Positions 36,752 to 54,636 of a stretch of 64,000 nucleotides of DNA are shown here, piece after piece. The stretch comes from Rhizobium leguminosarum bv. trifolii WSM1325 (GTDB lineage Bacteria > Pseudomonadota > Alphaproteobacteria > Rhizobiales > Rhizobiaceae): NCBI GenBank assembly GCA_000023185.1, contig CP001624.1, positions 310,001-374,000 on the forward strand. The letters run 5' to 3'. Both the position numbers and the translations under genes were made by a program. The stretch's first letter is position 1, and each line of letters opens with the position of its first letter. Below the pieces are notes generated by a model. The model was not told the origin of the DNA and searched no databases. It worked only from the letters and a program-made list of their open reading frames with translations.

Positions 36752-36753
36752 AT

Positions 36754-37462: not shown

Positions 37463-37527
37463 CGAATTCGATTTCATCCCTTGGCATGACCGCAGGGCTG
37501 CTCCTATCGGATTTTGGAGGCATCGAA

Positions 37528-37782
37528 ATGCTTCAGTCCCTCATTACCTTGTCCGATCAAGACATTGATATCGTCATCACCGCGGTTCGGCGGTGGTGCA
37601 CGAAGAACCACTGTGAGATCGATAGCAACGAGGGCCGCCGCGCCCTGACCCTTGCCATCGATCTCGTTCAGCACTCCGCTCGAGACACGCTCCTCCAGAA
37701 CCTAATCGAGCGCCTTGGGCCGCACCCGCCATCGGGGATCGACGCGGAAAGCTCCGGCGCTCACTCGTGGAGGTCAAGCTGA
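37528..37782 (+). CDS. Unknown small protein, tandem copy 2
   Basis: An 84-residue paralogue of the preceding gene (MLQSLITLSDQDIDIVITAV, then RRWCTKNHCEIDSNEGRRAL...). GGAGG is eight bases before ATG 37528; the frame is open 14 codons upstream. It follows the first copy by 65 bases and probably shares its transcript. The two differ at most positions, so the duplication is old. Confidence 0.7.
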   Translation: MLQSLITLSDQDIDIVITAVRRWCTKNHCEIDSNEGRRALTLAIDLVQHSARDTLLQNLIERLGPHPPSGIDAESSGAHSWRSS

Positions 37783-37956
37783 GGGCGGATTTGAAAGGCG
37801 AGGATTGAACCTTTCGAGGTTCGGCCGCCATCTCATTTTGGCCTGGCTTCTGTTGCCACTTGAATCTCGCGCGGCCTGCCTCGACGATACCCCGTCCCGC
37901 TTCGGCTGAGAGCCTGGATGCGCTACTTGGACATCATCCGGCAGAATGTTTATGAA

Positions 37957-38904
37957 TCATCCGCGGGCAATACATCGGAAGCCCAGATGGCAAGTTGCTG
38001 TGTCGACGGGTTGCGCCATGCGCGCGGCCGGCCGGTAGCGGCGGCAATAATTGGGTGCGCAAAGATGTGAACCGCCTTTCATGACCTTGCGTGGAATGCT
38101 GATTTGCGGTTGGCGCGGATCATGGCTGTTGGAGAGTTCAGCGCCGACGGGATTCGAGATTGTGCAGCACGGGCTGTCGATCATGCCATGCTCTTGATAC
38201 CAGTCGGTCGTCCATTCCCAGACATTGCCGGCCATATCGAACAAACCATAGCCGTTGGCCGGAAAACTTCCCACGGGAGATGTCCCCTCGAAACCGTCTT
38301 CCCGACTGTTCTGGAGGGGAAACTCGCCCTGCCAGGTGTTGGCCATATGCCGGCCGCCGGGTAACATTTCCCCGCCCCAGACATAGTCCGCCGCCTCAAG
38401 CCCGCCGCGTGCGGCGAACTCCCATTCCGCTTCGGTCGGCAGTTCCTTGCCGGCCCAGGCCGCATAGGCTTTCGCGTCCTCGAACGCGACGTGGACAACC
38501 GGGTGCTCCAATAGCCCCTTGATCGTGCTTGCCGGTCCCCGCGGATGGCGCCAGTTCGCTCCGCGCACATATTTCCACCAGTTGTAGTGGTTCGTGAGAT
38601 CAACGGGCGACTTCGGCTTGATGAAAACGACCGATGCTGGTGCCAGCATCTCCATGATCGCACCCGGATAATCCGCCGGGTTGGCCGGCCGCTCCGCCGT
38701 GGTGACATAGCCGGTCGCCTCGACAAAGGCGGAAAACGCCCAGTTCGTCACCGGGCATGTGTCCATCCAGAAACCGTCGACGCGAACCCTGTGTGCCGGG
38801 GCTTCCTCCGCATAGTGGCGATCCGAGCCCATCAGGAAATCGCCGCCGGGGATCCATGACATACCGCCGCTCGGAGGAGCTTTCGCAATCCGTGGTTCCA
38901 CCAT
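37957..38904 (-). CDS. Formylglycine-generating enzyme (SUMF1-like)
   Basis: A 315-residue FGE-sulfatase-domain protein. FGEs oxidise a cysteine in sulfatases to formylglycine using O2 and copper. The two active-site cysteines are present in GGSHLCAPNYCRRYRPAARM (C282 and C287), as are GGDFLMGSD, PVTNWAFSAF, ELPTEAEWEFAARGG and NVWEWTTDWY. There is no signal peptide, so it would act in the cytosol before sulfatase export. A sulfatase gene with the cysteine-type motif lies just upstream on the same strand, and another is at 44900. ATG 38904 chosen; the frame opens at 38937. Confidence 0.92.
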   Translation of the reverse strand: MVEPRIAKAPPSGGMSWIPGGDFLMGSDRHYAEEAPAHRVRVDGFWMDTCPVTNWAFSAFVEATGYVTTAERPANPADYPGAIMEMLAPASVVFIKPKSPVDLTNHYNWWKYVRGANWRHPRGPASTIKGLLEHPVVHVAFEDAKAYAAWAGKELPTEAEWEFAARGGLEAADYVWGGEMLPGGRHMANTWQGEFPLQNSREDGFEGTSPVGSFPANGYGLFDMAGNVWEWTTDWYQEHGMIDSPCCTISNPVGAELSNSHDPRQPQISIPRKVMKGGSHLCAPNYCRRYRPAARMAQPVDTATCHLGFRCIARG

Positions 38905-39028
38905 GGCGTCGCCTTGCGTTCGACCTTCACTTATCATTCATTCGCGGAGACCTTCACTCGATCGCCGCCGTGCTGTGTGCCTTCATCAACACGGACGAGA
39001 ATTCGTCTTCGCCAATCGTTGTTTGCAC

Positions 39029-39553
39029 CTACCGCACCTCGCGATGCTCAAAGAACAGACCCCAAAGCCTTCCTTTGCCGAGCGCCACTCCGAGTTCCCT
39101 CGAAGCCAGATAAGGGATCAAGATCAGTAGCATGATCGCGCTCATGGCCAGGAGTTCGGGTAACCTGCCGGCCATACCTGTGATCACAACCGAGAGCGTC
39201 CGGCCATGGAGGAACCCAACGACGCACTCTTCGGCGAGCGACATGACGAGGATCAGCGAAAGATAGAGTGCCGCCTTATATGCCACGACGCCGACGAGTC
39301 TCGAACCGCCGGACCTCTCTCCCAGCCGGATCGTATGACCGAGCAGGATGAACTTTCCGAGAATGAGGGCCTTGAGCGCGGGTATACCGAACACAAGAAA
39401 TTCCACACCCTGACCACCGAGCACTGCCATTTTGTAGAGGAGGATAGCCGCGAAACAGACATAGAGATAGGCGCAGAGGAAGGCATACTCCTTTATCTCG
39501 TGCCTCGCTCGCTGGAGAATGGTCGTTGTTTGCCTGTTCTCATTCGCGATCAT
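39029..39553 (-). CDS. Four-helix membrane protein in the sulfatase cluster
   Basis: A 174-residue inner-membrane protein with about four hydrophobic helices: YAFLCAYLYVCFAAILLYKM, LVFGIPALKALILGKFILLG, LYLSLILVMSLAEECVVGFL and MSAIMLLILIPYLASRELGV. No motif I recognise. It lies between the FGE and the sulfatase genes on the same strand, 56 bases from the latter, so it is probably cotranscribed and may serve transport or assembly. Confidence 0.75.
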   Translation of the reverse strand: MIANENRQTTTILQRARHEIKEYAFLCAYLYVCFAAILLYKMAVLGGQGVEFLVFGIPALKALILGKFILLGHTIRLGERSGGSRLVGVVAYKAALYLSLILVMSLAEECVVGFLHGRTLSVVITGMAGRLPELLAMSAIMLLILIPYLASRELGVALGKGRLWGLFFEHREVR

Positions 39554-39609
39554 TGATCTTTTCCGATCCGAAAATTAACGGCGCATCCTTGCCTTTCGTC
39601 AAAGCGTGA

Positions 39610-41247
39610 TCACTGTCCGCCACCCCGCTGGAGTTTCTCAAGCACATGGTCCATCGAGAAGCTTCCCGGCGCCTGGCGGGGCGGATATTTTACATAGGTT
39701 TGAAGATGTTTGGCCACATATGCCTGGGCCGGAACCAGCGCGAAGGCATGTTCTACACGCCATCTTGCATAGTCTCCCGCTGCATGCTGGGCAATTTCGA
39801 ACGGATCGGCGCGCAGGTCGATTAACTTCGGAAATCTCAGTGTGATCAGAGGATCCTGCCACACGTCCAACCCCTCTGCTCGTTGTTCCATGAACACCAG
39901 CTTCCAGCGGTCGTAGCGCAATCCGGCCAGGCTTCCGTCATCAGTCCAGTAAAAATACTCCTTGCGCGCCCCAGGCCCTGTGCCATCAAGCAGTTTGCGT
40001 TGATTGTAGCCGTCAAGATGCACGTTGAATGTCTTGCCGGCCGCTTCATAGCCGTTCAGAAGCTTGGCTGCGATGTCCGGCTCGCCGGCTGCCGCAACCA
40101 AGGTCGGAAGCCAGTCTTCGTGGGAGACAATCTCGTTGATCTCGGTTCCCGGTTTGACAACGCCCGGCCAGCGCACCATCCCGGGCACGCGGTAGCCCCC
40201 CTCCCAATTTGTATTCTTTTCGCCATGGAACGGCGTTGTGCCCCCGTCAGGCCAGGAGAACACCTCTGCACCGTTATCGGTCGTCCAGACAACAATGGTG
40301 TTTTCGGCGATTCCAAGATCATCGAGCTGGTCGAGCAGCTGGCCAACCATACCGTCAAATTCGGCCATGCCGTCGGCAACGATCCCCAACCCCGTTTTGC
40401 CTTCCGACTCAGCCTTAAGATGCGTGTAGATATGCATCCGGGTCGAGTTGAACCAGCAAAAGAACGGTTTGTCGGCTTTGGCGCTGCGGTCGATGAAGTC
40501 CTTGGCAGCGCCTAGGAATTCCTCATCAACGGTTTCCATGCGTTTTCTATTGAGCGGTCCCGTATCCTCAATCGTCTGCTTGCCCACTCTTCCGAAACGC
40601 GGATCCTCGGTCGGATCGTCTGTCTCGCTTGCTTTGCATTTCAGCACGCCACGCGGTCCGAATTTTGCGAGAAACTGTGGATCCTTCGGGTAATCGGGGT
40701 TCTCCGGTTCTTCTTCGGCATTGAGGTGATAGAGGTTGCCAAAGAATTCATCGAAGCCATGGACCGTTGGCAGAAATTCGTTGCGATCGCCGAGATGGTT
40801 CTTGCCGAACTGGCCGGTAACGTACCCTTGTGGCTTGAGCAGTTCGGCGATTGTCGGATCCTTCTCAGACAGACCCTCCTTGGCTCCGGGAAGCCCGACT
40901 TTTAGCAGCCCCGTGCGAAAACAGCTTTGGCCTGTGATGAAGGCCGCCCGCCCCGCCGTGCAGGATTGCTGAGCGTAGAGATCGGTGAACATCGCACCTT
41001 CGTCGGCGATACGGTCGATATTTGGCGTCTGGTATCCCATCTGCCCGCGATTGTAAGCGCTGGTGTTCCACCAGCCGATGTCATCGCCGAAGATCACAAG
41101 GATGTTCGGTTTCTTTGCTCCTGCCTGGGCAAGCGCCGGGATGCTGGCGATCGGACAGAATGCCGTTAAAGCGATTGCCGAACCGCCGGCCAGCAGGATT
41201 TGGCGACGGGTGGCGTTGTAACCTTGCCGGTTGCTCTTGCTGCTCAT
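39610..41247 (-). CDS. Arylsulfatase with Tat signal (formylglycine type)
   Basis: A 545-residue type I sulfatase, hydrolysing sulfate esters outside the cytoplasm. The Tat signal TRRQILLAGGSAIALTAF is at residues 13-30, cleavage near ALA-QA. The metal-binding ILVIFGDDIGWW follows. The motif SCTAGR contains the cysteine (C96) to be turned into formylglycine (C-x-A-x-R). Then come GKNHLGD and WTTDNGAE. A Tat signal means export after folding, consistent with prior modification by the cytosolic FGE encoded downstream. ATG 41247 with GGAG upstream was chosen over 41265. Confidence 0.9.
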   Translation of the reverse strand: MSSKSNRQGYNATRRQILLAGGSAIALTAFCPIASIPALAQAGAKKPNILVIFGDDIGWWNTSAYNRGQMGYQTPNIDRIADEGAMFTDLYAQQSCTAGRAAFITGQSCFRTGLLKVGLPGAKEGLSEKDPTIAELLKPQGYVTGQFGKNHLGDRNEFLPTVHGFDEFFGNLYHLNAEEEPENPDYPKDPQFLAKFGPRGVLKCKASETDDPTEDPRFGRVGKQTIEDTGPLNRKRMETVDEEFLGAAKDFIDRSAKADKPFFCWFNSTRMHIYTHLKAESEGKTGLGIVADGMAEFDGMVGQLLDQLDDLGIAENTIVVWTTDNGAEVFSWPDGGTTPFHGEKNTNWEGGYRVPGMVRWPGVVKPGTEINEIVSHEDWLPTLVAAAGEPDIAAKLLNGYEAAGKTFNVHLDGYNQRKLLDGTGPGARKEYFYWTDDGSLAGLRYDRWKLVFMEQRAEGLDVWQDPLITLRFPKLIDLRADPFEIAQHAAGDYARWRVEHAFALVPAQAYVAKHLQTYVKYPPRQAPGSFSMDHVLEKLQRGGGQ

Positions 41248-41610
41248 CGTGGCGCTCCCGTTCACGTTATCGGCTGTTTGGCTGCTTCCAAAAATTTAGC
41301 GCAAATACGGTCCCGCGCTATTGCACTTAAGGGAGGGTCGGTGTGCTTTGCCCTGAGCAGGGCACTTTAGGCGCCAAGCTGTCAGCCCGCTCAATGGCCG
41401 CCTGTAAATTCACGGGCGGCTGCATCATAGATGTCTAAAGATTCAAATTGCAAATTACAAAGATCGGCAATCAACATCGGCAATTTTCTTGATTTTAGCA
41501 TGTTAACTTATTGATTATAATCGTATTTTATAAATTATAAGGTCGGCAAAGCTGCCGCCGATGCGACGCCGACCGCCGTGCTGGGGAGCGCATGGTCTCC
41601 GGCTCTCAGG
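41248..41610. other. A/T-rich intergenic region
   Basis: No gene. 41430-41545 is very A/T-rich compared with its surroundings, with several TTATAA/TATTTT-like boxes and repeated GATCGGCAA/CATCGGCAA. It is the likely promoter region of the sulfatase-FGE operon. Confidence 0.5.
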
Positions 41611-41982
41611 TCACAATCCCAATGCTTTGTTGATGGCCGCAATCAGCGCGGCTCCGGAAAACTGCTTCTGCAGATAAGCAACGCATCCCACCTTTTCCGC
41701 CTCTGCCTTCACGGAGGCGGTTTCCACTGCCGTGATGAAAATCACTGGAAGGGTCGTCCCGTCGGCCTTCAGCCTGCGTTGCAGATCGATGCCGGACATG
41801 CCACCGAGGTCGATATCAAGGACAAGACAGTCTATCGCCGCTTTGGGATCGCGAGCGAGAAAGGCCTCGGCGGATGCAAACTCCATGGCCAGAAAACCGT
41901 AGGCGTTGAGCAGCCGCCCCAGGCTGCGCCGCAGGCTTGCGTCATCGTCGACGACAGCGACCGTGCGGCGAAGGTTCTCCAC
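41611..41982 (-). CDS. Single-domain response regulator
   Basis: A 123-residue CheY-like receiver: acidic pocket VVDDD (residues 10-14), phospho-acceptor D56 in LVLDIDLGGMSG, the T/S position in FITAVE, and Lys in YLQKQFSG, where the usual KP is KQ. No output domain, so it probably acts as a phosphate relay or sink for the kinase encoded nearby on the same strand. Confidence 0.87.
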   Translation of the reverse strand: MENLRRTVAVVDDDASLRRSLGRLLNAYGFLAMEFASAEAFLARDPKAAIDCLVLDIDLGGMSGIDLQRRLKADGTTLPVIFITAVETASVKAEAEKVGCVAYLQKQFSGAALIAAINKALGL

Positions 41983-42083
41983 CTCATGCCCCCTCTTTCG
42001 AACCTATGAGAGACTAACGGTTGCCGGTCAAATTAGGCCGCTTAGAGGTCGATTGATATTGTCCTAAGGGGAAGGATATCGGA

Positions 42084-42716
42084 TCAACCCGCTGACGATG
42101 CCGTATCCTGATCGATGAGACCGATATTCGCGGCGATCGACACGGCCTCGGCCAGCGAACGTACCCCAAGCTTTTCCATGACCTGATGGCGATGCACCTT
42201 CACCGTTCGCTCCGAGATGCCGAGCGCATGAGCGATCTGCTTGTTGAGACGGCCGCGAATGAGGAACCGGAACACTTCGGCCTCGCGCGGGCTAAGCCCC
42301 GCCACCAGCGACCGCTGGCCCTGGAGACGGTCGTGTTCGGCCCGCTGTCTTTCATATTGGATAAGAGCGCGATCGATCGCCCCCATCAATGTCGCTGCGG
42401 TAGAACTTTTCTCCAGAAAATCCTTGGCGCCCGCCTTCATCGCCTCGACGCTTGCCTTGATGTCTCCTTCCCCCGTCAGGAACACGACCGGAAATAGCGG
42501 CGCCAGCTCGCACAGCCGGCGTTGGATCTGCAGGCCGGATTGGCCAGGCATCTGGAGGTCGAGAAGAACGCAGCCCGGCTCGCAAGCGGAAAGTCGGGAA
42601 AGAAACTGATCCCCGGATTCATAAGCTTCGACCCTAAGGCCGTTTGCGGAAAGCAGCCTTGCGGTCGCCGTCCGGTAGGATTTGTCGTCATCGACGATAT
42701 GGACAACCGGTTTCAT
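42084..42716 (-). CDS. FixJ-type response regulator
   Basis: A 210-residue two-domain regulator: a receiver (HIVDDDKSY, D53 in LLDLQMPG, LTGEGD, LEKSS) and a LuxR-type helix-turn-helix (LSPREAEVFRFLIRGRLNKQ, then IAHALGISERTVKVHRHQVM; residues about 140-200). ATG 42716 overlaps the kinase stop (ATGA), so it is the cognate partner. It probably controls the adjacent sulfatase or cytochrome genes. Confidence 0.92.
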   Translation of the reverse strand: MKPVVHIVDDDKSYRTATARLLSANGLRVEAYESGDQFLSRLSACEPGCVLLDLQMPGQSGLQIQRRLCELAPLFPVVFLTGEGDIKASVEAMKAGAKDFLEKSSTAATLMGAIDRALIQYERQRAEHDRLQGQRSLVAGLSPREAEVFRFLIRGRLNKQIAHALGISERTVKVHRHQVMEKLGVRSLAEAVSIAANIGLIDQDTASSAG

Positions 42717-44608
42717 CTCGATTGCTCCTCCCTGTGGGCGAGAGGCAGGGCCACGCGAAAGACCGCGCCTCCCTCGGGGCGGTTGTCGGCACGGATGGTA
42801 CCGCCATAGGTCTCGAGAATGGCGCGGGCTATGGACAGACCCAGCCCCGTCCCCGCCTGCTTGGTGGTATAGAACGGTTCGAATATGCGGATCAGCCTCT
42901 CTTCCGGAATGCCGTCTCCGGTGTCGGAGACCCGCAGCTCCGCCTTTTCGTTCGCCAGTCCCGTCGCGAAGGTAAGAGTTCTCCCGGCCGGAACGGCGTC
43001 CAGCATGGCGTCCATCGCGTTGGTCGCCAGATTGAGAATGACCTGCTGCACGTGAACCTTGTCGGCACGCACCGGCAGTTCACCGGGCGGCTGGGTTGAG
43101 GTCAGCGTAATTCCGCGCCGTTCCGCCTCGCCGTGAATGATGTGGATTGCGCTCGATGTGACATCGTTCAGATCGAACTCCTGCCAATCGATCTCGCTTC
43201 TCTTCTTGAGCAACCCTCTCATCCGGCTGATAATATCGCCTGCGCGTTGATCGTCCTCCTGGATGTCGAGAAGAATCTGCTGGATCAGCCCGTGATCCGG
43301 GTTTGCACTCCGCAGCAGCACCGAGGCAGCCTCAGCGTTGTTTCGGATGGCCGATAGCGGCTGGTTCAGTTCGTGAGCGATCGACGAGGATAGTGCGCCG
43401 GCCGTCGCGGACTGGTTGAGATGGACAGCTTCAAGCAGGTGAAGCTGCGAGCTGCGCTCGGCGTCGCGGCGGCGCCTCCTCTCGAGCAGAAGCACCGAGA
43501 TGATGCTGGCCTGCGCCAGCACGAGGCCGCCCCCCGCCACCAACACGATCCAATGTTCCTCCCAGAGACTCCTCTCCTTGTGCATCTGGATCGTGCCCGG
43601 CGGCAGATCCTTTTCGGCGAGCCCCCAGCGCTTGAGCTGCCGGGCATCGGCGACATAGGTCTGTGGCGCTTCGAGATCGGATACCGGCTTGCCGGCAATC
43701 GCATCGATGACGAGGTCACCGACGGTCCGGCCGAGCGCTTCGAATGTGACGGTATTGCCGCCGACGACGCCATGATCGATGTAGGTCTGATAAGGGCCGT
43801 AGACAGGCGCGCTGGCCGTCGACGCGATCTGTCTGATCGCGTCGCGCGGAATGAAGTTGCGCCCTGCCCGATCCTTAAAGACCGTCAATGCCAGGATGAT
43901 GCTGTCGGGCGGTACGCGGGAAGCACGTTCGACCAATTCGTCGATCGTCAGATCTTCCAGATAGGTCGTCGTATCATAGGATTTGGAGAACTGTTTCAAA
44001 TCCACGCGGGCCGTCGTCAGCCAGCTCCGGTCGAAGTCGGACGAGCCACCGACGACGTAGAGGTGGCGGGCATCGGGCTGCAGGCCGCGGGCCATCTCAG
44101 CCGTCTTCAGAATGTCGAAGGTCGAGAAGGCTCCGATAACGTCATCGGGCAAGTCGATCTTCTCGGCGGTGGCGGTGCCGAAACCGGCGGCGACGATTTT
44201 TGCGCCTGGAGCGATCGTGCCGCGGTTCGCGACGAAGAAGCTCGTCGATTCCCGGCCGAGGGCCACGACCACGTCGGGGCGGCGCGCCGCGTATTTCTCG
44301 CCCAGATAGCGTGCCATGCGCGCGACGTGGTCACCTTCCGGAAACCGCGAGAGATCCAGGAACTCGGAAAACAGGTCGATCTTGCCGTTTGTCGCCTCCA
44401 GCAAACGGGTCCGCAGCGCCTCTCCAGCAGCGGTCGTCGCCGCGATCCTCTCGTCATAGGGATAGAGGACGAGGACGCGGGGAACCCGGTCAATGATGGC
44501 AATAGAGGTGTCGGAGGCTGCGGCCTGGCGACTGGGCACACTCATGGCGACGACCGCCAACAAAAAGGCAGCGCAGCATAATCGACCTGACCATTCGCCC
44601 AAGCCCAT
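42713..44608 (-). CDS. Histidine kinase with periplasmic ABC-type substrate-binding sensor
   Basis: A 631-residue sensor kinase. A signal sequence (to about residue 32) precedes a periplasmic ABC_sub_bind-type domain (about 45-320), a single transmembrane helix (about 352-375), a coiled linker, HisKA with H412 in SSIAHELNQPLSAI, and HATPase (NLATNAMDAM, DTGDGIP, GTGLGLSIARAI). A binding-protein-like sensor implies direct detection of a small molecule in the periplasm. The start is ATG 44608, after GGGGGGAAA; TTG 44623 is possible. It is divergent from the second sulfatase, coupled to the FixJ-type regulator. Confidence 0.9.
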   Translation of the reverse strand: MGLGEWSGRLCCAAFLLAVVAMSVPSRQAAASDTSIAIIDRVPRVLVLYPYDERIAATTAAGEALRTRLLEATNGKIDLFSEFLDLSRFPEGDHVARMARYLGEKYAARRPDVVVALGRESTSFFVANRGTIAPGAKIVAAGFGTATAEKIDLPDDVIGAFSTFDILKTAEMARGLQPDARHLYVVGGSSDFDRSWLTTARVDLKQFSKSYDTTTYLEDLTIDELVERASRVPPDSIILALTVFKDRAGRNFIPRDAIRQIASTASAPVYGPYQTYIDHGVVGGNTVTFEALGRTVGDLVIDAIAGKPVSDLEAPQTYVADARQLKRWGLAEKDLPPGTIQMHKERSLWEEHWIVLVAGGGLVLAQASIISVLLLERRRRRDAERSSQLHLLEAVHLNQSATAGALSSSIAHELNQPLSAIRNNAEAASVLLRSANPDHGLIQQILLDIQEDDQRAGDIISRMRGLLKKRSEIDWQEFDLNDVTSSAIHIIHGEAERRGITLTSTQPPGELPVRADKVHVQQVILNLATNAMDAMLDAVPAGRTLTFATGLANEKAELRVSDTGDGIPEERLIRIFEPFYTTKQAGTGLGLSIARAILETYGGTIRADNRPEGGAVFRVALPLAHREEQSR

Positions 44609-44899
44609 CCGCTTTCCCCCCAAAGCCGGGCGACAATAACAGCTTCCCGCTGCGTCGTCATCTGCGCATCACTACTGTCGATTGCCACACATGAAGATTC
44701 CCTAAAGTACAATATCGAGCGAAGGCAGCATTCGCTAGGGTTCAGCACGCCGGGGCAGAGATGCGCCGGCTTCGCAACCCGCCGGAGACAGTTCCGGCAG
44801 GATCTTCGTTTTCAAAGCAGTCTAGTTGAATCGACGATGCAATCGCAGGCCTTTGCCGCGCGGCTTCGTCATTCAAGAACGTCAACGGAGGGATTTGAA

Positions 44900-46570: not shown

Positions 46571-46576
46571 GTCTTT

Positions 46577-46604
46577 GGCAGCCCCGGAGCGATCCGGGGC
46601 TGCC
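46577..46604 (+). other. Perfect 12-bp hairpin after the sulfatase gene
   Basis: GGCAGCCCCGGA/TCCGGGGCTGCC with loop GCGA, starting six bases after the stop. The next bases are GTATAG, so there is no proper T-run. It may terminate partly or protect the sulfatase mRNA. Confidence 0.7.
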
Positions 46605-46654
46605 GTATAGTTCCGAGTTTTAGATTGCTGCAAGCTAGTCGTGGAGGATTTGCG

Positions 46655-47665
46655 ATGATTTCGGCACGTAATTTCCGGTATTTTTCCCGCGGCGTCGCGC
46701 TCGCCGCTGCAGTATGGCTTTTTGCCGCGGCGGCGGCGGTCGCTCAGACGGACGCACTGCCTTCGTGGAATGATACTGCGCCGAAGCAAGCGATTATCTC
46801 CTTCGTTGAGAAGGTGACAAAACCGGGTTCAGCCGAGTTCGTCCCGGAAGCGGCGCGTATCGCCGTTTTCGACAATGATGGAACCCTGTGGGTCGAGCAT
46901 CCGATGTATACGCAGCTGGCGTTCGCCCTGGACCGAGTGAAGGGGCTTGCTCCGCAGCATCCGGAATGGAAGCAAACGCAGCCGTTCAAGGCCGTGCTCG
47001 AAGGCGATATGAAGACGCTCGCGGCATCCGGCGAAAAGGGCCTCGTCGAGCTTATCATGGCCACGCATGCCGGAATGACCAGCGACGATTTCCAGAAGGT
47101 CGTCACTGATTGGCTCGCTTCGGCGCGCGACCCTAAATTCAAGCGGCCATACACCGAACTCGTCTATCAGCCGATGGTCGAGCTTCTCGCCTATCTCCGC
47201 GCCAACGGCTTCAAGACCTTCATCGTGTCAGGCGGAGGCATCGAGTTCATGCGGCCATGGGTGGAGAAGGTCTACGGTGTCCCGCCGGAGCAGGTTATCG
47301 GCTCGTCGATCAAGACCGAATTCAGGATGCAGGACGACACGCCGACCCTCTTTCGCCTCCCCGAAGTCAATTTCATCGACGACAAGGCCGGTAAACCCGT
47401 CGGAATCAACCAGCAGATCGGCCGGCGGCCGATTGCCGCCTTCGGCAATTCCGACGGAGATCTCCAAATGCTGCAATGGACGACCATGGCGGGCGCACCT
47501 GCTAGGCTGGGCGTGCTGATCCATCATACCGATGCGAAGCGTGAATACGCCTACGACCGAGATACAGAGTTCGGCCGCCTCGACAAGGCGCTCGATGCAG
47601 CCGCGATCACCGGCTGGACCGTCGTCGATATGAAGGCCGACTGGAAGCAGGTCTTCAAGGACTAG
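46655..47665 (+). CDS. Exported HAD-family phosphatase
   Basis: A 336-residue HAD hydrolase with a Sec signal (GVALAAAVWLFAAAAAVAQT). Motif I is FDNDGTLW (DxDGT variant), motif II is VSGGGIEF, and motif IV is AFGNSDGDLQM. It resembles phosphoserine-phosphatase-like HADs but is periplasmic, so it probably removes phosphate from an extracytoplasmic substrate. GGAGG lies eight bases before ATG 46655. It lies between sulfatase and octahaem cytochrome genes on the same strand. Confidence 0.85.
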   Translation: MISARNFRYFSRGVALAAAVWLFAAAAAVAQTDALPSWNDTAPKQAIISFVEKVTKPGSAEFVPEAARIAVFDNDGTLWVEHPMYTQLAFALDRVKGLAPQHPEWKQTQPFKAVLEGDMKTLAASGEKGLVELIMATHAGMTSDDFQKVVTDWLASARDPKFKRPYTELVYQPMVELLAYLRANGFKTFIVSGGGIEFMRPWVEKVYGVPPEQVIGSSIKTEFRMQDDTPTLFRLPEVNFIDDKAGKPVGINQQIGRRPIAAFGNSDGDLQMLQWTTMAGAPARLGVLIHHTDAKREYAYDRDTEFGRLDKALDAAAITGWTVVDMKADWKQVFKD

Positions 47666-47735
47666 GACCGCGCCCTCACGCCAGAGACTTCAACCTGCGG
47701 CGGGACCTTGCAAAACGTCATATGGGAGTGATTGA

Positions 47736-50012
47736 GTGGCAGCGTCTGTTCGATCAGCAGCGGTGAGAGGAACACACCTCCTGTTCTTCCTGTTGCTCGC
47801 CTTTGCCGGGCGCAGCCTTGCGAGTGACGACATTTCGATACCCGCCTCCGATCCGCAGATATCGATCCACGAAGGTTTCGTGGACGAAAGGACGTGCGCA
47901 TCCTGCCACGCCGATCAGGCGGCGGCTTTTTCGAAATCCCACCATGCAAAGGCCATGGCACTGGCCGACAACGGAACGGTGCGTGGCGATTTCGACAATA
48001 GCAGGTTCGAACATGACGGCGTCGTCACGACCTTCACCCGCCGCGCCGGCCGCTTCTTCGTTAACACCGAGGGAGCGGACGGCGGCCAGGCCGAGTTCGA
48101 AGTCAAATATACCTTTGCCTACGAACCACTGCAGCAATACCTCGTCGACATTGGAGGAGGGCGGCTGCAGGCTCTCGACATCGCCTGGGATACAGCCAGA
48201 CGGCAGTGGTTCTGGCTCGGAAACGGCACCCCGGCCAAACCCGGATCGACCTATCATTGGACAGGTCCTTTCTACCGCTGGAACCGCACCTGTATCGATT
48301 GCCATTCGACCGATCCCCAAGCGGGGTTTCAACCGCAGACGAACGAATACAAGTCGACCTACGTCGCCACCAGCATCGGCTGTCAATCCTGTCACGGCCC
48401 GGGCGCAAAACACGTGGCTTTGGCGCGATCGGGCAACGCATCATCCTCGGTCAAGCCGGATACAGGTCTGCCGAAAGTCGATGCGGGCATCTGTTTCGCC
48501 TGCCATGCCAGGCGCACCAAGCTGCTGGACGGTTATCAACCGGGAAAGCCCTTTCTCGATTATTTCTCACCCGCCCTGCTTCGGCAGGATCTTTATTTCC
48601 CGGACGGACAGATACTCGACGAGGTCTTCGAATATGGCTCGTTTCAGCAAAGCAAGATGGCCAGGGCGGGCGTGACCTGTCTCGACTGTCATCGGCCGCA
48701 CGAGGCCGGGCTCAAGGCCGAGGGCAATGCACTGTGCACGCAATGCCACACAGAGACGAAGCCGGACCGCTTCGTCAACCAGGATCCGAGCGGGCGGTTC
48801 GACACTCCCGCGCACACCCACCATCAGGCCGGTTCGACTGGAGCACAATGCGCCAACTGCCATATGCCCGAACGCACCTACATGAAGGTGGACCCGCGCC
48901 GCGACCACTCCTTCGTCATCCCACGGCCCGATCTGTCGGCAACGCTTGGAACGCCGAATGCATGCACGACCTGCCATGTCGGCGAAACCGATGATTGGGC
49001 AGCCGAGACAATGGACGAATGGTACGGAACGCAATGGCGCAAACGCGCGTCGATCGCCCATGCCTTCGCCGGAGCCACGAACGGCGATCAAGCCGCGGTG
49101 GAGGCTCTGCGCGCCCTAGTCAGCGACCAAAAGCAAGCAGGAATTGTCAGGGGCAGCGCCATCGCCGCACTGAGTGGGATTAGCGGCGTGGATATCACAG
49201 CCGATATTCGAACGGCCGCAACCGATGCAGATCCGCTCGTCAGGCTCGGCGCTGCGGAAGCGGCAGGTAACATTCCGCCGGAGCAGAGGCTGGATGCGAT
49301 CAGCAATCTGCTGAGCGATGCGACGCGGGCGGTGCGCGTTGCGGCCGCCAACGCGCTCGCCAGCACCCCTCCCGAGCTCTTCGGCAATCAGCGCGAAAAT
49401 TTCGAAGCCGCTGTCGCGGACCTTCGCGCCTATGTCGAAACGAATGGCGACGTCGCGGAAACGCAAAGCAATTATGGCTTCTTCCTGTTCGCCCGCCAGC
49501 GTACGGCCGAGGCAGAAGCCGCCTTCCGGCGAGCGATTTCGCTAGACCCAACGCTGGAGGCAACGCGCATCAATCTCGCCGAGTTCTACCGCGCCACGGG
49601 TCAGAACGACAGGTCGGAACAAACTTATGCCGAAGCGATCGCCATGGCGCCGGCACGCGCGGATTTGCGCTACGGACATGCGCTGTCCCTGGTACGCAGG
49701 CAGGCATTGACCGAGGCGATCACGGAACTCGAAGAAGCGGTGCGGCTCGATCCGCAAAACCCCCGCTACAAGACCACCTTTGCCGTCGCTCTCGATTCCG
49801 CTGGCCGGACAGAAGAGGCGCTGGGCAGGCTCGATGGTTGGGCGGCAGGCGGAGACGCCGACATCATCGGCCTGGCACTCCAATACAGTCTCAAGCTTCG
49901 ACACTTGCCGGAGGCGCTGAAACACGCGGAGGATCTGGCGCGATTGAGGCCTCAGGACCCGCAGATTTCAGGCCTCATCGGGCAGCTGAAGCAGGCGATC
50001 AACGGGAAATAG
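47736..50012 (+). CDS. Octahaem c-type cytochrome with HEAT and TPR repeats
   Basis: A 758-residue exported protein. A Sec signal (LLFFLLLAFAGRSLA) precedes eight CxxCH haem-binding motifs at about residues 54, 186, 216, 253, 315, 334, 372 and 410 (CASCH, CIDCH, CQSCH, CFACH, CLDCH, CTQCH, CANCH, CTTCH). Residues about 435-565 are HEAT-like alpha repeats, and about 570-755 are tetratricopeptide repeats. Such multihaem-TPR proteins are periplasmic electron carriers or oxidoreductases of unknown substrate. The start is GTG 47736, with GGGAG upstream. Multihaem cytochromes are rare in Rhizobium. Confidence 0.9.
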   Translation: MAASVRSAAVRGTHLLFFLLLAFAGRSLASDDISIPASDPQISIHEGFVDERTCASCHADQAAAFSKSHHAKAMALADNGTVRGDFDNSRFEHDGVVTTFTRRAGRFFVNTEGADGGQAEFEVKYTFAYEPLQQYLVDIGGGRLQALDIAWDTARRQWFWLGNGTPAKPGSTYHWTGPFYRWNRTCIDCHSTDPQAGFQPQTNEYKSTYVATSIGCQSCHGPGAKHVALARSGNASSSVKPDTGLPKVDAGICFACHARRTKLLDGYQPGKPFLDYFSPALLRQDLYFPDGQILDEVFEYGSFQQSKMARAGVTCLDCHRPHEAGLKAEGNALCTQCHTETKPDRFVNQDPSGRFDTPAHTHHQAGSTGAQCANCHMPERTYMKVDPRRDHSFVIPRPDLSATLGTPNACTTCHVGETDDWAAETMDEWYGTQWRKRASIAHAFAGATNGDQAAVEALRALVSDQKQAGIVRGSAIAALSGISGVDITADIRTAATDADPLVRLGAAEAAGNIPPEQRLDAISNLLSDATRAVRVAAANALASTPPELFGNQRENFEAAVADLRAYVETNGDVAETQSNYGFFLFARQRTAEAEAAFRRAISLDPTLEATRINLAEFYRATGQNDRSEQTYAEAIAMAPARADLRYGHALSLVRRQALTEAITELEEAVRLDPQNPRYKTTFAVALDSAGRTEEALGRLDGWAAGGDADIIGLALQYSLKLRHLPEALKHAEDLARLRPQDPQISGLIGQLKQAINGK

Positions 50013-50102
50013 GTATTTTAGCTTGTCCAAATCTACTTCTCGCTGCACAGTGCCGACTCGGGACAGCAGTGCCGAGGCGACAAACGGGATCGGGGGATTC
50101 TC

Positions 50103-50891
50103 ATGAAGGCCATATACTTGCGTGCCATTCTGTTACTGGCGGGCATTTCTGCAGCGTCGGGCGGCAACGCCGCCGATATCACGCCGCTCACGCCGGAAGC
50201 AAAAACAGTCGAGAGCCAGAGCGGCTGGGAATTCACCTTCGCTCCATATTTCTGGGCTGCCGGCTTATCCGGCGACATTGGGCAGTTCGGGCTTCCGGAA
50301 GTTCATGTCGACGCGGACTTCGGCGATATCCTCCAGAACCTCGACTTCGCTTTCATGGCGGCAGGCGAAGCAAGATATGATCGCTTCAGCATCGTCGGTG
50401 ACGTGATCTACACCAAGCTCGGTGCCGACGCCGACACACCTGCCGGCATCCTTGCCGAGAGCGTCGATGTGACGTCGAAGACCTTCGCGGGATTTCTTGG
50501 CGTCGGTTACGCCGTGCTCGAAGACCAAAATGGCCATCTCGACGTGGTCGGCGGCATGAAGGTCTGGTCGGCCAAAACCGAGATTTCCTTCAATGGCGGC
50601 ATTCTGGCCGGAGTGGATGTCGAAGACAGCGCCACATGGGTTGATGCCGTCGCCGGCGTCAGAGGAAACTACTTCTTCACGCCGGAAATCTATCTCACCG
50701 GATGGGGTCTGGTGGGTGCCGGCGGCGCCGACCTCGACTGGGACGTGGCATTGGGCCTCGGCTACAAGTTCAACGACAGCATCTCGGCGGTCGCCGGATA
50801 TCGCGCACTCGGCGTCAATTACGACAATGACGGGTTCGTCTTCGACGTCGTCCAGCAGGGGCCGATCTTCGGGGTCGCCATTCGGTTCTAA
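50103..50891 (+). CDS. Outer-membrane beta-barrel protein
   Basis: A 262-residue protein with signal peptide MKAIYLRAILLLAGISAASG and a mature part of alternating amphipathic strands (WEFTFAPYFWAAGLSGDIG, YDRFSIVGDVIYTKLG, YLTGWGLVGAGGADLDWD), ending VQQGPIFGVAIRF with the terminal phenylalanine of outer-membrane barrels. An eight- to ten-strand barrel is likely. It lies 90 bases after the octahaem gene. Function unknown; perhaps uptake of the cluster's substrate. Confidence 0.8.
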   Translation: MKAIYLRAILLLAGISAASGGNAADITPLTPEAKTVESQSGWEFTFAPYFWAAGLSGDIGQFGLPEVHVDADFGDILQNLDFAFMAAGEARYDRFSIVGDVIYTKLGADADTPAGILAESVDVTSKTFAGFLGVGYAVLEDQNGHLDVVGGMKVWSAKTEISFNGGILAGVDVEDSATWVDAVAGVRGNYFFTPEIYLTGWGLVGAGGADLDWDVALGLGYKFNDSISAVAGYRALGVNYDNDGFVFDVVQQGPIFGVAIRF

Positions 50892-51002
50892 CGCCCGGAC
50901 TGGCGAACTTCGTGCTGTTGGCGATTATCCTTCCGATATGCTCGCCATTAAAGACCTGATTTCTCCAGGAGCCGGAACAACGACGTCCCCCAGGAAGCAG
51001 AG

Positions 51003-51128
51003 AGCCGCCGTGAAAAGAACAGCGGCTCACAGTTCGGTATCCAGCAAGGCTCGATCCTGGGGATATCGTTTCACTTCGCAGAACGCCTGCCTCGCGGGCT
51101 GAATTCAATCGGATCATGGAGGCATTGA
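51003..51128 (+). pseudogene. Tail fragment of a second beta-barrel gene
   Basis: From about 51003 a frame reads SRREKNSGSQFGIQQGSILG, then ISFHF, the pattern of a last outer-membrane strand ending in Phe, before continuing into a short unrelated tail to TGA 51126-51128. It parallels the end of the preceding barrel protein (VQQGPIFGVAIRF). Only the 3' end is left. Its stop overlaps the ATG of the next gene. Confidence 0.5.
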
Positions 51129-51931
51129 TGACGAACGTCGCTTCTCGGATGGCACTGGTTGTCGCGGCACTCAGTCTCTGGGCAGGTACGGCAAGCGCTC
51201 AGTCGAGCGAAGAGCTTGCGAAGAAGTTGTCGAATCCAATCGCCTCGCTCATCAGCGTGCCGTTCCAGTTCAACTACGACCACGGCTATGGTCCCGAAGA
51301 CGGCGACAAGGCAACGATGAACATCCAGCCTGTCATTCCGTTTTCTCTGAACGAGGACTGGAATCTCATTTCGAGGACCATCCTGCCGGTCACATGGCAG
51401 AACGACATCGCCGGACCCTCCGGCACGCAATTCGGCCTCGGCGACACGTTGCAAAGCTTCTTTCTCTCTCCTTCAAAGCCGACCGAGAGTGGCGTGGTCT
51501 GGGGTGCAGGACCCGTGTTCCTTCTTCCGACGGGCACGGATGAGCTTCTCGGAAGCGGTAAGTGGGGAGCGGGTCCGACCGCGGTCGTCCTCAAGCAGGA
51601 CGGTCCCTGGACCTACGGCATGCTCGGCAACCATATCTGGTCATTTGCCGGTCAGAGTGATCGTCGGGACGTGAGTTCGACGTTCATGCAACCGTTCATC
51701 TCGTACACCACCAAGGACGCCTGGACTTTCTCGCTGAATACCGAGTCCACCTATGACTGGGAAGCAAACGACTGGTCGGTGCCGATCAACTTCGCAGTCG
51801 CCAAGCTGATCACCATCGACAAACAGCCAATCAGCCTGACGGCGGGCATACGATATTGGGCGGCTGCTCCAGACAATGGCCCGGAAGGACTGGGCTTCCG
51901 CGTCGCGGTCACGTTCCTCTTTCCTAAGTGA
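51128..51931 (+). CDS. Outer-membrane transporter-like protein
   Basis: A 267-residue exported beta-rich protein (signal MTNVASRMALVVAALSLWAG, cleavage near ASA-QS). The following LSNPIASLISVPFQFNYDHG, WNLISRTILPVTWQ, GLGDTLQSFFLSP and a C-terminal GFRVAVTFLFPK are typical of the MetA-pathway/phenol-degradation-type outer-membrane proteins, often annotated as neuromedin U-like or transporter. GGAGG is five bases before ATG 51128. Probable role: passage of substrates through the outer membrane in this cluster. Confidence 0.78.
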   Translation: MTNVASRMALVVAALSLWAGTASAQSSEELAKKLSNPIASLISVPFQFNYDHGYGPEDGDKATMNIQPVIPFSLNEDWNLISRTILPVTWQNDIAGPSGTQFGLGDTLQSFFLSPSKPTESGVVWGAGPVFLLPTGTDELLGSGKWGAGPTAVVLKQDGPWTYGMLGNHIWSFAGQSDRRDVSSTFMQPFISYTTKDAWTFSLNTESTYDWEANDWSVPINFAVAKLITIDKQPISLTAGIRYWAAAPDNGPEGLGFRVAVTFLFPK

Positions 51932-52482
51932 ATCCGCAGCCGACGACGCGCTCCGCCCAAACGTCTTGGAGCTCGGGTCTACCAATCTTCGTGAAATATG
52001 GGCTTGCCTGGCGTCCATCGAAATTTGCTCTAGGAGCAGGACCTATTAATCTGGCATCAACTGCCAACAGCCATTGTTTGCGGGATAGGCGACGAACGGC
52101 AACTTTCCGCCATTGTGAGATTTAGACCAAAGTCTCAAAGCCGCCATAAGCTGCCGTTTGCCAATGATGCTGCGAAGGCTCGACCCCGCCCTAAGCTACG
52201 GCCGCTATTTAAGGCGGACACTCGCTCCTTATGTGATGTAATTTATAATAATCTAATGTACAGTAGCGTACCTATCTCGGGCTGTGGTTTAGAGAATTCA
52301 ACACGTATTGCCAGCCCTCCGGCGACGAACGTCGCCCCGCAACTGACACGCTAGTGCATGGTTTCTTAAATCGGAATCGATTTAAGAACAAAATTATACA
52401 GAAATTCAAAGCGTTAAAGCCATATTTGCGCGTCTGAAAAGATGTGTGGAGTTGTAGGCTATTTCAACCGATGGAGGATGTC
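51932..52482. other. Gap carrying an intergenic repeat
   Basis: No gene recognised in 51932-52350. From 52357 to about 52457 runs a typical rhizobial intergenic repeat (listed separately). The A/T-rich part at 52225-52265 may be a promoter. Confidence 0.5.
52357..52457. repeat. Intergenic repeat with palindrome
   Basis: Begins with the palindrome TTCTTAAATCG/CGATTTAAGAA (52363-52388, GAAT between) and continues through CAAAATTATACAGAAATTCA to TTTGCGCGTCTGAAAAGA and GTTGTAGG. I recall the same order of blocks from many Rhizobium intergenic regions. A degraded copy of its right end lies at 53997-54034, on the other side of the DUF1254 gene. Confidence 0.6.
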
Positions 52483-53895
52483 ATGCAGCTGACCAGACGC
52501 GACTTCACGAGGGCTTCATTGTTAGCGGCAGGTCTTTTGGGACTTCGCTCCACTGGTGCCGCAGCCGACGATGTAACGGCAGAGGAGGCTCGCGCAATCG
52601 CCAAGGAGGCTTATACCTACGGCTTCCCAGCGGTGGACAGCTACCGGATCCAATACGCCTATTTCGTCGACGACAAGAACCCGGAATACAAGGCTCCGTG
52701 GAACCACCTCAAGAACATCCCCCGCGTCTACACGCCCGCAGATACGGCAATCCAGACGCCCAATTCCGACACGCCCTATTCCATGATTGGCCTGGACCTG
52801 CGCGCTGAACCGATGGTCCTTACTGTGCCAGTGATCGAGAAGGACCGGTATTTCAGCATTCAGCTCATCGACGCTTATACGTTTAACTTCGACTATGCCG
52901 GCAGCCGCACGACCGGCAACGACGGCGGCAGCTTCCTGGTCGCGGGCCCCGAGTGGAAAGGCGAGATGCCTGCGGGCATCAAGAATGTGTTTCGCGCGGA
53001 GACCGATCTCGTTATTGGGGCTTATCGCACGCAGTTGTTCAACACCGACGACTTGGACAATGTGAAAAAGATCCAGGATGGCTACAAGGCTGAGCCGCTT
53101 TCGTCGTTTCTCGGCAAGCCCGCACCTGCGGCCGCTCCCGCAATCGACTTTATCAAGCCGGTTTCGCCGGACGACGAGCGCAAGTCGCTCGAGTTTTTCA
53201 ACATCCTGAATTTCGTCCTGCGGTTCTGCTCGCTCAATCCATCCGAGACCGAGTTGATGGCGCGTTTTGCCAAGATCGGGATCGGTGCAGGCAAGACAAT
53301 AGACGTTGCTGCGCTCTCGCCCGGGATGAAGACTACCATGGAACAGGGCATGGCCGACGCCTGGGCCGATCTTGGGATATTGAAAAAGCAGATCGACGCC
53401 GGCACGGTGACCTCGGGCGATATGTTCGGCACGCGCGAATACCTCAAGAACAACTATCTGTATCGCATGGCGGCGGCCGTTCTCGGAATTTACGGAAATT
53501 CAAAGCAGGAGGCGATGTACCCGGTCTACGCCATTGACACTGAGGGGCAGAAGCTCGACGGCGCCAACCGCTACACCGTCCACTTCGCAGCCGACAAGAT
53601 GCCGCCGGTTCACGCCTTCTGGTCGCTGACGATGTATGATCTCCCGGCGAGCCTGCTGGTCGCCAATCCGATCGACCGATACCTGCTCAACAAGCCGATG
53701 CTGCCGCAATTCGTGAAGGATTCCGATGGAGGCTACACCTTCTATGTGCAGAATGGGTCGCCGGGCAAGGACAAGGAGCCGAATTGGCTGCCAGCGCCCA
53801 AAGGCCCCTTCTTCGTCGCGATGCGCCTCTACTGGCCAAAAGACGAGGCGCTCGACGGCACGTGGAAACATCCGCCCATGGCCAAGACATCATAG
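52483..53895 (+). CDS. Tat-exported DUF1254/DUF1214 protein
   Basis: A 470-residue protein with a Tat signal (TRRDFTRASLLAAGLLGL, residues 4-21), an N-terminal DUF1254 domain (YTYGFPAVDSYRIQYAYF, NIPRVYTPADTAIQTPNSDT) and a C-terminal DUF1214 domain (YPVYAIDTEGQKLDGANRYT, HAFWSLTMYDLPASLLV). The family is widespread and without established function. GGAGG lies before ATG 52483; the frame opens 13 codons earlier. Flanked by repeat copies on both sides. Confidence 0.9.
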   Translation: MQLTRRDFTRASLLAAGLLGLRSTGAAADDVTAEEARAIAKEAYTYGFPAVDSYRIQYAYFVDDKNPEYKAPWNHLKNIPRVYTPADTAIQTPNSDTPYSMIGLDLRAEPMVLTVPVIEKDRYFSIQLIDAYTFNFDYAGSRTTGNDGGSFLVAGPEWKGEMPAGIKNVFRAETDLVIGAYRTQLFNTDDLDNVKKIQDGYKAEPLSSFLGKPAPAAAPAIDFIKPVSPDDERKSLEFFNILNFVLRFCSLNPSETELMARFAKIGIGAGKTIDVAALSPGMKTTMEQGMADAWADLGILKKQIDAGTVTSGDMFGTREYLKNNYLYRMAAAVLGIYGNSKQEAMYPVYAIDTEGQKLDGANRYTVHFAADKMPPVHAFWSLTMYDLPASLLVANPIDRYLLNKPMLPQFVKDSDGGYTFYVQNGSPGKDKEPNWLPAPKGPFFVAMRLYWPKDEALDGTWKHPPMAKTS

Positions 53896-53996
53896 CCAGT
53901 TCGGTTCAGTTCAGTTCGCCGCGGCGTTCAGCCGAATCCTATCCGACTCACAGCCAGACGCGGCAAGCAGGAACAGCAGTTCAAACTGCTACAATG

Positions 53997-54034
53997 TGCT
54001 TGCGTGTCTGAAAAGACCCGCGGCGCTGTAGTAG
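53997..54034. repeat. Degraded partial copy of the intergenic repeat
   Basis: CTTGCGTGTCTGAAAAGA followed by a GGCGCTGTAG block matches the right end of the repeat at 52425-52457 with several differences. Confidence 0.45.
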
Positions 54035-54093
54035 CAAAAGCTCAACCTTCTTTTGCTATTGCTGGAGCCGGTTGCGTTGGAGATGGTTCGGCG

Positions 54094-54636
54094 ATGAAAA
54101 TTCCGACAGTGATGGTTCTGATGGCGGCCCTGTTGCAGCCGGTCTCTGCCTTCGGCGAGACCGAATGGATGGGCGGCGCAAGACAATGGTCGGTCGGCTT
54201 TTCCAACGAGAGCCCGCATCCCTATTGCCGCCTGCTGTGGGACAGCGAGATCGGCAAGACCATGGAATTCCGCCAGAGCGCGACCGAGACATTCTGGCTG
54301 GTCGCAAAGACCACATGGGACATTCCGGCCGGCACGAAGACCGAGGTGACGCTGACCGATCGTACGGTGACGAAAGTAATCGCTGCCGATTTCTTCGACA
54401 AGAACACGCTTCGCCTCTGGGGCCCGGCCAGCAAGGGGAGCGCCGGGCTGAAGAAGATCATCAAGAATTCCTTTGCCGGAATGCCTGACGTGCAGATCAC
54501 ATTCGCCGGCGACGAAGGCGACTGGATGCTGCCGCTCTCGCGGGTGGAGCAGCTTTACCCGACTTATCTCCAGTGCCTCAAGCGTCTCGAGGCCGGCGAA
54601 AAGCCAAAGAAGAATTCCGAAACTCAGCCGTTCTGA
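54094..54636 (+). CDS. Exported hypothetical protein (180 aa)
   Basis: A 180-residue protein with a clear Sec signal (MKIPTVMVLMAALLQPVSAF, cleavage near AFG-ET). The mature part is beta-rich (WSVGFSNESPHPYCRLLWDS, TTWDIPAGTKTEVTLTDRTV). No family recognised. The frame opens at 54004, but the signal peptide places the start at ATG 54094; GGAG is 13 bases upstream, a little far. It ends seven bases from the stop of the convergent HutH-like gene. Confidence 0.7.
   Translation: MKIPTVMVLMAALLQPVSAFGETEWMGGARQWSVGFSNESPHPYCRLLWDSEIGKTMEFRQSATETFWLVAKTTWDIPAGTKTEVTLTDRTVTKVIAADFFDKNTLRLWGPASKGSAGLKKIIKNSFAGMPDVQITFAGDEGDWMLPLSRVEQLYPTYLQCLKRLEAGEKPKKNSETQPF

Follow-up and report, generated by a model that had tools for sequence, protein, structure and literature searches.

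What is an eight-haem cytochrome doing beside sulfatases on a Rhizobium plasmid? The question is raised by a stretch of 64,000 nucleotides, here called the window, from plasmid pR132502 of Rhizobium leguminosarum bv. trifolii WSM1325 (positions 310001-374000). A first-pass annotation, made from the letters alone, had joined a formylglycine-generating enzyme (FGE), two sulfatases (SUL1 and SUL2), a sensor kinase with two response regulators, a HAD phosphatase and an octahaem c-type cytochrome fused to HEAT and TPR repeats into one 17-kb block. Multihaem cytochromes are usually read as respiratory. Our analysis revealed that the octahaem protein of this block is found beside sulfatases in distant bacterial lineages, and that an operator-like element predicts which genes answer to one signal.

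The octahaem cytochrome is found beside sulfatases

When named genomes were scanned with a profile of 13 octahaem sequences, 44 loci were found, in Rhizobium, Phyllobacterium, Ensifer/Sinorhizobium, Mesorhizobium and further Rhizobiales/Hyphomicrobiales. The fetched stretch contained a sulfatase of at least 250 aa at 41 of these loci, a homologue of the HAD phosphatase at 41 and a kinase at 30. Over all 83 loci, a sulfatase of this length was found near the octahaem gene in 71 (67 of 79 after removal of four duplicates). We also examined 297 Rhizobiaceae genomes, using sulfatase searches (P0003 and P0004) that scored the top four candidates per genome and gave counts that are lower bounds. The haem domain was present in 20 genomes, close relatives of SUL2 in at least 18 and both in at least 12; in 11 of these 12 genomes the two genes lay within about 15 kb on one contig. 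A P0004-like sulfatase was detected in at least 52 of the 297 genomes, namely in 19 of the 20 octahaem-positive compared with 33 of the 277 octahaem-negative genomes (Fisher P = 3e-15, not corrected for phylogeny). The 20th octahaem genome (G346) carries another S1 sulfatase 108 bp away. When all sulfatase types were counted, 16 of the 20 genomes had one within roughly 10 kb; no sulfatase was found near the octahaem gene in the searched stretches of G325, G124, G284 and G266. The genome G000 has seven PF00884 matches in 7.42 Mb, so a random locus at this density would be expected within 10 kb of a sulfatase in an estimated 2% or so of cases.

The pairing extends outside the family. A class-wide draw of 352 Alphaproteobacteria yielded nine octahaem genomes including WSM1325, and seven of the eight others had a nearby sulfatase; the octahaem protein is rare outside Rhizobiaceae. 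The same adjacency was observed in Methylosinus OB3b, where the annotated octahaem and sulfatase genes overlap by 4 bp, and in Methylocystis, Pseudoalteromonas THAF3 and Vibrio coralliilyticus. The first-pass annotation had made its reading depend on the octahaem protein keeping company with FGE and sulfatases beyond very close strains: for the sulfatases this company reaches far beyond close strains, from alpha- to gammaproteobacteria, and for the FGE it is peculiar to WSM1325, the only one of the 20 octahaem genomes with an FGE within 15 kb of the octahaem gene.

A tree of 86 partner sulfatases of at least 440 aa, drawn from 64 loci, resolved about 20 clades at the cut used. The nearest sulfatase was on the same strand as the octahaem gene in 54 of the 64 loci, and the catalytic column held cysteine in 84 of the 86 sequences, the other two being gapped there. 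Because its partners span about 20 clades, the octahaem cytochrome is tied to the sulfatase class and not to one subfamily.

A conserved core and two strain-specific insertions

Family searches and RefSeq placed every gene named by the first-pass annotation where it had been reported. RefSeq gene calls match the window genes except for some start codons; RefSeq calls the octahaem protein a 'tetratricopeptide repeat protein' and both SUL1 and SUL2 'arylsulfatase'. Export signals were judged by eye from the sequence. The features are as follows.

35536..41586: strain-specific insertion (Crp/Fnr regulator, FGE, membrane protein, SUL1); ends approximate
37957..38904, minus strand: FGE; insertion; PF03781, 5.5e-85; start per RefSeq
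39029..39553, minus strand: four-helix membrane protein; insertion; four hydropathy peaks, no Pfam match
39610..41247, minus strand: SUL1, S1 sulfatase; insertion; PF00884, 9.5e-50; CTAGR active site; Tat-type signal read by eye from RRQILL
41313..41337, minus strand: operator-like element 5' of SUL1; 13.9 bits
41611..41982, minus strand: REC, receiver-only response regulator; core; PF00072, 1.9e-23
42051..42075, minus strand: operator-like element 5' of REC; 14.6 bits
42084..42716, minus strand: FixJ-like response regulator with LuxR-type DNA-binding domain; core; PF00072, PF00196
42713..44608, minus strand: sensor histidine kinase with periplasmic ABC-binding-protein-like sensor; core; HisKA/HATPase_c
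44696..44720, plus strand: operator-like element 5' of SUL2; 35.7 bits
44900..46570, plus strand: SUL2, exported S1 sulfatase; core; PF00884, 7.6e-47; CTPGR active site
46655..47665, plus strand: exported HAD phosphatase; core; PF12710, 5.5e-15
47736..50012, plus strand: octahaem c-type cytochrome fused to HEAT and TPR repeats; core; eight CXXCH
50103..50891, plus strand: OMP1, predicted beta-barrel, DUF481-like; core, variable; PF04338, 5.8e-5
51116..51931, plus strand: OMP2, predicted outer-membrane protein; core, variable; no Pfam match
52036..53974: strain-specific insertion with the DUF1254 gene; ends approximate
52483..53895, plus strand: DUF1254/DUF1214 protein; second insertion; PF06863, 2.7e-42; Tat-type signal by eye

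The 17-kb block is a conserved core with two strain-specific insertions and not one unit by descent. In R. johnstonii 3841 and seven other loci of the R. leguminosarum complex the core (41,586-52,036) is for the most part collinear, with DNA identity of about 85-92%; it has the REC, FixJ-like regulator and kinase genes divergent from the SUL2, HAD, octahaem and outer-membrane protein genes. Both insertions (35,536-41,586 and 52,036-53,974) are absent from all eight of these close relatives, and a single unit of descent that includes FGE and DUF1254 was rejected on this ground. At three loci (L026, L030 and L067) the gap at the DUF1254 insertion extends over OMP2 as well. Relatives differ in OMP2 or the region around it, and in L029 an additional sulfatase gene separates kinase and SUL2. 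The core genes are under purifying selection, with pairwise ratios of nonsynonymous to synonymous divergence (dN/dS) of 0.02-0.25 against four relatives. Against the same four, synonymous divergence (dS) ranged from 0.25 to 1.14 for SUL2 and stayed at 0.29-0.36 for the octahaem gene and PAL; this wide variation beside steady values suggests exchange of SUL2 alleles.

Most of the reported protein families were borne out, including the four hydrophobic peaks of the membrane protein, the HAD and DUF1254/DUF1214 proteins and the eight-haem cytochrome with its HEAT/TPR repeats, with export read by eye. The two proposed outer-membrane proteins fared unevenly. OMP1 has a weak DUF481 match barely above the cut-off and its homologue cluster occurs in 30 of 52 loci; OMP2, whose cluster occurs in 21 of 52, has no family match, and its R. 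binae homologue is annotated 'transporter'.

Several other features were observed around these genes. At L025 (8577-8860) the sulfatase has shrunk to a short fragment, and at L065 (5000-8800) kinase and sulfatase each lie in two frames, possibly through sequencing error. Genes of the c9 family, whose Gly-rich exported products have about 265 aa (one member scanned, without a Pfam match), are often found beside the octahaem gene, in 13 of 52 loci, and lie between the HAD and octahaem genes in L050 and L066. An MscS-like mechanosensitive-channel gene adjoins the octahaem gene in L020 and L076, where the sulfatase is of an 800-aa type, and weaker relatives occur in L062 and L066. Between DUF1254 and HutH (54094-54636) lies a gene for an exported protein of unassigned family, with a sub-threshold Pfam match and counterparts in 10 of 52 loci. 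Further right, the genes for histidine utilisation (HutH and ABC genes) look like a separate unit. In a PADLOC defence search the cytochrome, kinase and HAD protein had no match and the regulator weak matches only.

A shared operator-like element

The gap between kinase and SUL2 contains a block, T-T/G-CCC-n-AA-A/G-G-T/G-n-CAATATC, that is conserved in 26 loci while the rest of the gap has diverged. The corresponding element, about TTCCCCAAAGGACAATATC, lies 5' of SUL2, REC and SUL1. Scanned with a 25-base matrix built from 31 distinct sites, the window had three matches that scored 12 bits or more (35.7, 14.6 and 13.9 bits), and five shuffles had none; a looser pattern gave three window matches compared with 0.32 expected, a number reached by none of 100 shuffles. 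Sites of at least 25 bits were present in 33 of the 44 named-genome loci, the same loci that trained the matrix. An exact pattern, KCCCNWWRGKRCAATAK, widened to cover the three window sites, matched the 7.4-Mb WSM1325 genome three times, always in the window (SUL2, REC and SUL1). Across 20 genomes this pattern had 32 matches compared with nine for a reversed control pattern, and it occurred in 9 of 14 octahaem-positive genomes and in none of six octahaem-negative Rhizobium genomes. The genes 3' of 26 of the 32 matches encode sulfatases (15), REC (7) and one each of HAD, FGE, DUF1254 and a Cys-rich protein, the last judged by eye. Seven matches lie at loci outside the derivation of the pattern, before four sulfatase genes and one gene each for FGE, REC and DUF1254.

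In other genomes the element stands before both linked and unlinked genes. At a second locus of G029, REC, FixJ-like regulator and kinase genes are followed in a row by the element and by genes for a sulfatase of some 850 aa and an FGE; in G011 an FGE gene and a sulfatase gene diverge from a gap that holds two elements. A scan for sigma-70 promoters found four compared with 4.8 expected, none at the element.

The two-component genes supply a candidate regulator. The kinase has HisKA/HATPase_c domains and, as first described, an ABC-type binding sensor, although the sensor profile matches such proteins weakly (6hni, 6e-4; 3lkv, 1.7e-3), and no PAS domain was matched in Pfam; the two response regulators are the FixJ-like and receiver-only proteins. 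The kinase core resembles FixL (6e-45; 153.8 of 850 bits) and the regulator FixJ (4.7e-52; 176.5 of 255 bits) and TtrR (3.7e-45), all below the NCBIfam cut-offs, including the FixL/FixJ equivalog cut-offs. In contrast to FixL/FixJ and TtrS/TtrR, the system described here has an ABC-binding-protein-like sensor, an extra receiver-only protein and a sulfatase neighbourhood. The FixJ-like protein may bind the element, and SUL1, from an insertion, is predicted to form one regulon with SUL2, from the core. The first-pass annotation had linked the genes functionally by adjacency, and held that separate regulation of the blocks would speak against the link. Since the element is common to SUL1 and SUL2 the blocks do not look separately regulated, and the link gains from this predicted sharing; it loses in that the block did not descend as a unit and the window DUF1254 gene has no element.

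A proposed desulfation regulon

We hold, with about even confidence, that these genes form a signal-controlled periplasmic desulfation regulon for organosulfate scavenging, in which an OcwA-like cytochrome would take electrons from the desulfated product. The binding-protein-like domain of the kinase would sense a periplasmic ligand, either a sulfated compound or a sulfur-status signal, and the FixJ-like regulator would bind the element and switch on the sulfatases. The gene for FGE lies elsewhere in most strains; the enzyme would convert the active-site cysteine to formylglycine before export. The organosulfate would enter via the outer-membrane proteins, and the sulfatases and HAD phosphatase would remove sulfate and phosphate. 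The cytochrome would be a dedicated redox partner that most likely takes electrons as the desulfated product, a phenolic or a sugar, is oxidised, with its TPR/HEAT part as a docking platform. The sequence itself shows the two divergent gene blocks and the element before sulfatase and REC genes; the steps given here, including sulfate-ester sensing by the kinase and redox chemistry on the desulfated compound, are inferred.

Several observations weigh against this proposal. At 12 of the 83 loci the fetched stretch holds no sulfatase that reaches 250 aa (two have a fragment, and some lie on short contigs), about 20 partner clades fit a single product poorly, and neither FGE nor DUF1254 is conserved beside the cytochrome. 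As for the element, 11 of the 44 named-genome loci, six of them in Phyllobacterium, have no site of at least 25 bits, 5 of the 14 octahaem-positive genomes searched have no exact match, and 6 of the 32 exact matches look like background. The six octahaem-negative genomes are a weak control: the P0004 search covered two of them and found no sulfatase of that type in either. Only the matches at unused loci are independent, since the pattern was drawn from, and widened to, this cluster.

The cytochrome could instead be a terminal reductase or electron conduit of the OcwA/NrfA kind, co-regulated with sulfatases under one condition and acting on nitrite, hydroxylamine, a metal or a sulfur oxyanion. 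The octahaem protein has an N-terminus of the exported type, judged by eye, and CXXCH motifs at positions 54, 186, 216, 253, 315, 334, 372 and 410. Its best structural relatives by haem profile are OcwA (6i5b, 2.6e-20, in three pieces), 6qvm (4e-13) and c554 (1.6e-6), followed by NrfA (about 1e-4), MccA (0.0025) and the octahaem nitrite reductases (0.02-0.05). The structure 6i5b is the nonahaem OcwA of Thermincola, and the profile similarity to it covers the haem core. In the OcwA-like family, one or two haems have an open or non-histidine distal site. Free histidines 70, 226, 322, 360, 363 and 391 of the window protein are invariant over 50 sequences of 32-86% identity to it, and His174 is nearly invariant in a set of 14 but not in the set of 50; at least one of the eight haems may thus have no conserved histidine as distal ligand. 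The catalytic haem of the OTR/ONR class is bound by CXXCK; in the octahaem protein all eight motifs are CXXCH, with no CXXCK or further C-x-x-C. Likeness to the OcwA, c554, NrfA and octahaem nitrite reductase families lies in the haem part, whereas the eight plain CXXCH motifs, the HEAT/TPR fusion, the sulfatase neighbour and the proteobacterial host set the window protein apart. The resemblance of the regulator to TtrR of tetrathionate respiration, below cut-off as it is, also fits a reductase. However, sulfatase adjacency across alpha- and gammaproteobacteria suggests a shared reaction and not a shared condition, and the outer-membrane proteins fall short of the size of an MtrB-type conduit. 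We regard a reductase or conduit role as unlikely.

Plain scavenging of any sulfate ester under sulfur starvation, with the cytochrome as a passive helper or an unrelated passenger, would agree with an element common to several different sulfatases. A passenger, however, is not expected to stay with differing sulfatase clades in distant lineages, and we judge this explanation improbable.

Sulfatase maturation

Both sulfatases carry the PF00884 fold and the C/S-x-P/A-x-R signature of S1 sulfatases predicted to depend on formylglycine, and the cysteine type reported for them was confirmed (active sites CTAGR and CTPGR). The nearest solved structures to SUL2 are 7aj0 arylsulfatase and arylsulfatase A. 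The FGE has PF03781 and a GGSHLCAPNYCRR motif with both catalytic cysteines (C-x4-C), as first noted, which places it in the SUMF1 type; no signal peptide is obvious, and its closest solved structures are human SUMF1 and bacterial FGEs. As in arylsulfatase A-type systems, an FGE is found in the genome or regulon of many strains; what differs here is an octahaem cytochrome and a HAD phosphatase as partners, with a dedicated two-component system next to them. Across the 297 genomes, the start of an FGE gene with at least 52% identity falls within 10 kb of a P0004-like sulfatase in no fewer than 30 of 58 cases.

One genome, R. leguminosarum Norway (G026, locus L029), has four cysteine-type S1 proteins and the regulon but no PF03781 match; the anSME model found weak radical-SAM matches only (37 bits compared with a cut-off of 349), and dN/dS of its SUL2 against the window copy is 0.02. 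A different arrangement was seen in G219 (contig C11, 137420-141543), a genome without the octahaem protein, in which an anSME over the cut-off adjoins a SUL2 relative.

It is conceivable, but decidedly improbable in our view, that formylglycine sulfatases have in the octahaem-HEAT-TPR proteins a dedicated redox cofactor of general use. Such a cofactor would activate, re-oxidise or repair the catalytic residue in the periplasm, or drain electrons from every desulfated product. If true, this would account for the company that the octahaem protein keeps with some 20 clades of sulfatases across alpha- and gammaproteobacteria, and for the strongly conserved sulfatase that stands beside it in a genome with neither an FGE homologue nor an over-cut-off anSME.

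Genomes lacking both maturases also prompted the idea that the octahaem protein replaces FGE. Among 52 sulfatase-bearing Rhizobiaceae, with maturase-less defined as no FGE (P0010, E<=1e-45) and no anSME, the octahaem protein was not enriched without a maturase (2 of 6 compared with 17 of 46 with one; P = 1.0), and replacement is unsupported in the 297 Rhizobiaceae; numbers are small and three of the six genomes are incomplete (68, 83 and 85%). With FGEs below 52% identity excluded the figures were 7 of 13 and 12 of 39 (P = 0.19); nine such FGEs, in seven genomes, count as FGE because all carry the C-x4-C motif. Weak PF03781 matches in G028, G346, G326, G284, G059, G051 and G219 had no C-x4-C motif in a regular-expression search, less surely so in G346, where two overlapping frames are open. 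Benjdia reportedly inferred, in 2007, a third sulfatase maturation system in E. coli, which matures such sulfatases and is not known to have an octahaem protein of this kind. One paper states that the E. coli machinery has been elusive (PMC6189696). An FGE-independent role of the octahaem protein in maturation, by oxidation of cysteine to formylglycine in the periplasm or by uptake of the electrons, would suit its ties to cysteine-type sulfatases of many clades and not one substrate class, the retained regulon and SUL2 of G026 and the third system reported for E. coli, but it is very improbable given the small enrichment test, the FGE genes that themselves belong to the regulon in some strains and the E. 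coli case.

Relation to known systems

The closest precedent found is in freshwater Verrucomicrobia, where sulfatase genes often neighbour PSCyt cytochrome c genes and a role in carbohydrate degradation is suspected (PMC5615132). The likeness is that of sulfatase genes beside cytochrome c genes; the cytochrome family differs, and the passages describing it mention no two-component system or operator. The PSCyt domain was not among the 19 Pfam families matching the octahaem protein at E<=0.001.

The nearest counterpart by gene order lies on pSymA of S. meliloti 1021 at about 943.4-952.0 kb, with the REC-FixJ-kinase and SUL2-HAD-octahaem arms at 56-80% identity. It probably corresponds to SMa1682-SMa1686, tags matched from gene order and map position. 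In the excerpts available, SMa1686 is a FixJ-like core-genome regulator under RirA control (PMC4560400), a tolC mutant shows a 5.0-fold decrease of the SMa1683 arylsulfatase (PMC2912261), absence of PhaR mildly raises the SMa1682 'nonspecific acid phosphatase' (PMC12542648) and SMa1688 is a listed two-component response regulator (PMC11387232). The counterpart is thus known, in these excerpts, from single genes in omics lists, with no description as a system. A formylglycine sulfatase of Shinella has been reported with genomic FGEs in a text from which the word 'cytochrome' is absent (PMC11500405), and the parts seen of three further papers mention sulfatases and haem proteins separately (PMC8528874, PMC10199032, PMC6646835). 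Our literature search, over the passages it returned, found no description of an octahaem-sulfatase system; pRL11 and S. meliloti locus tags were guessed, so misses by tag carry little weight. To that extent the novelty claimed for Rhizobium holds for the system, while its S. meliloti parts already appear in omics papers.

Implications

That the octahaem protein habitually stands beside formylglycine sulfatases, in alpha- as well as gammaproteobacteria, suggests that desulfation is linked to a redox step. For well-studied rhizobia, S. meliloti 1021 and R. johnstonii 3841 among them, the element predicts which sulfatase, FGE and other genes answer to one sensor. Strains such as Norway, which lack FGE but have kept the regulon, are well suited to asking how cysteine-type sulfatases mature in the absence of the known enzymes.

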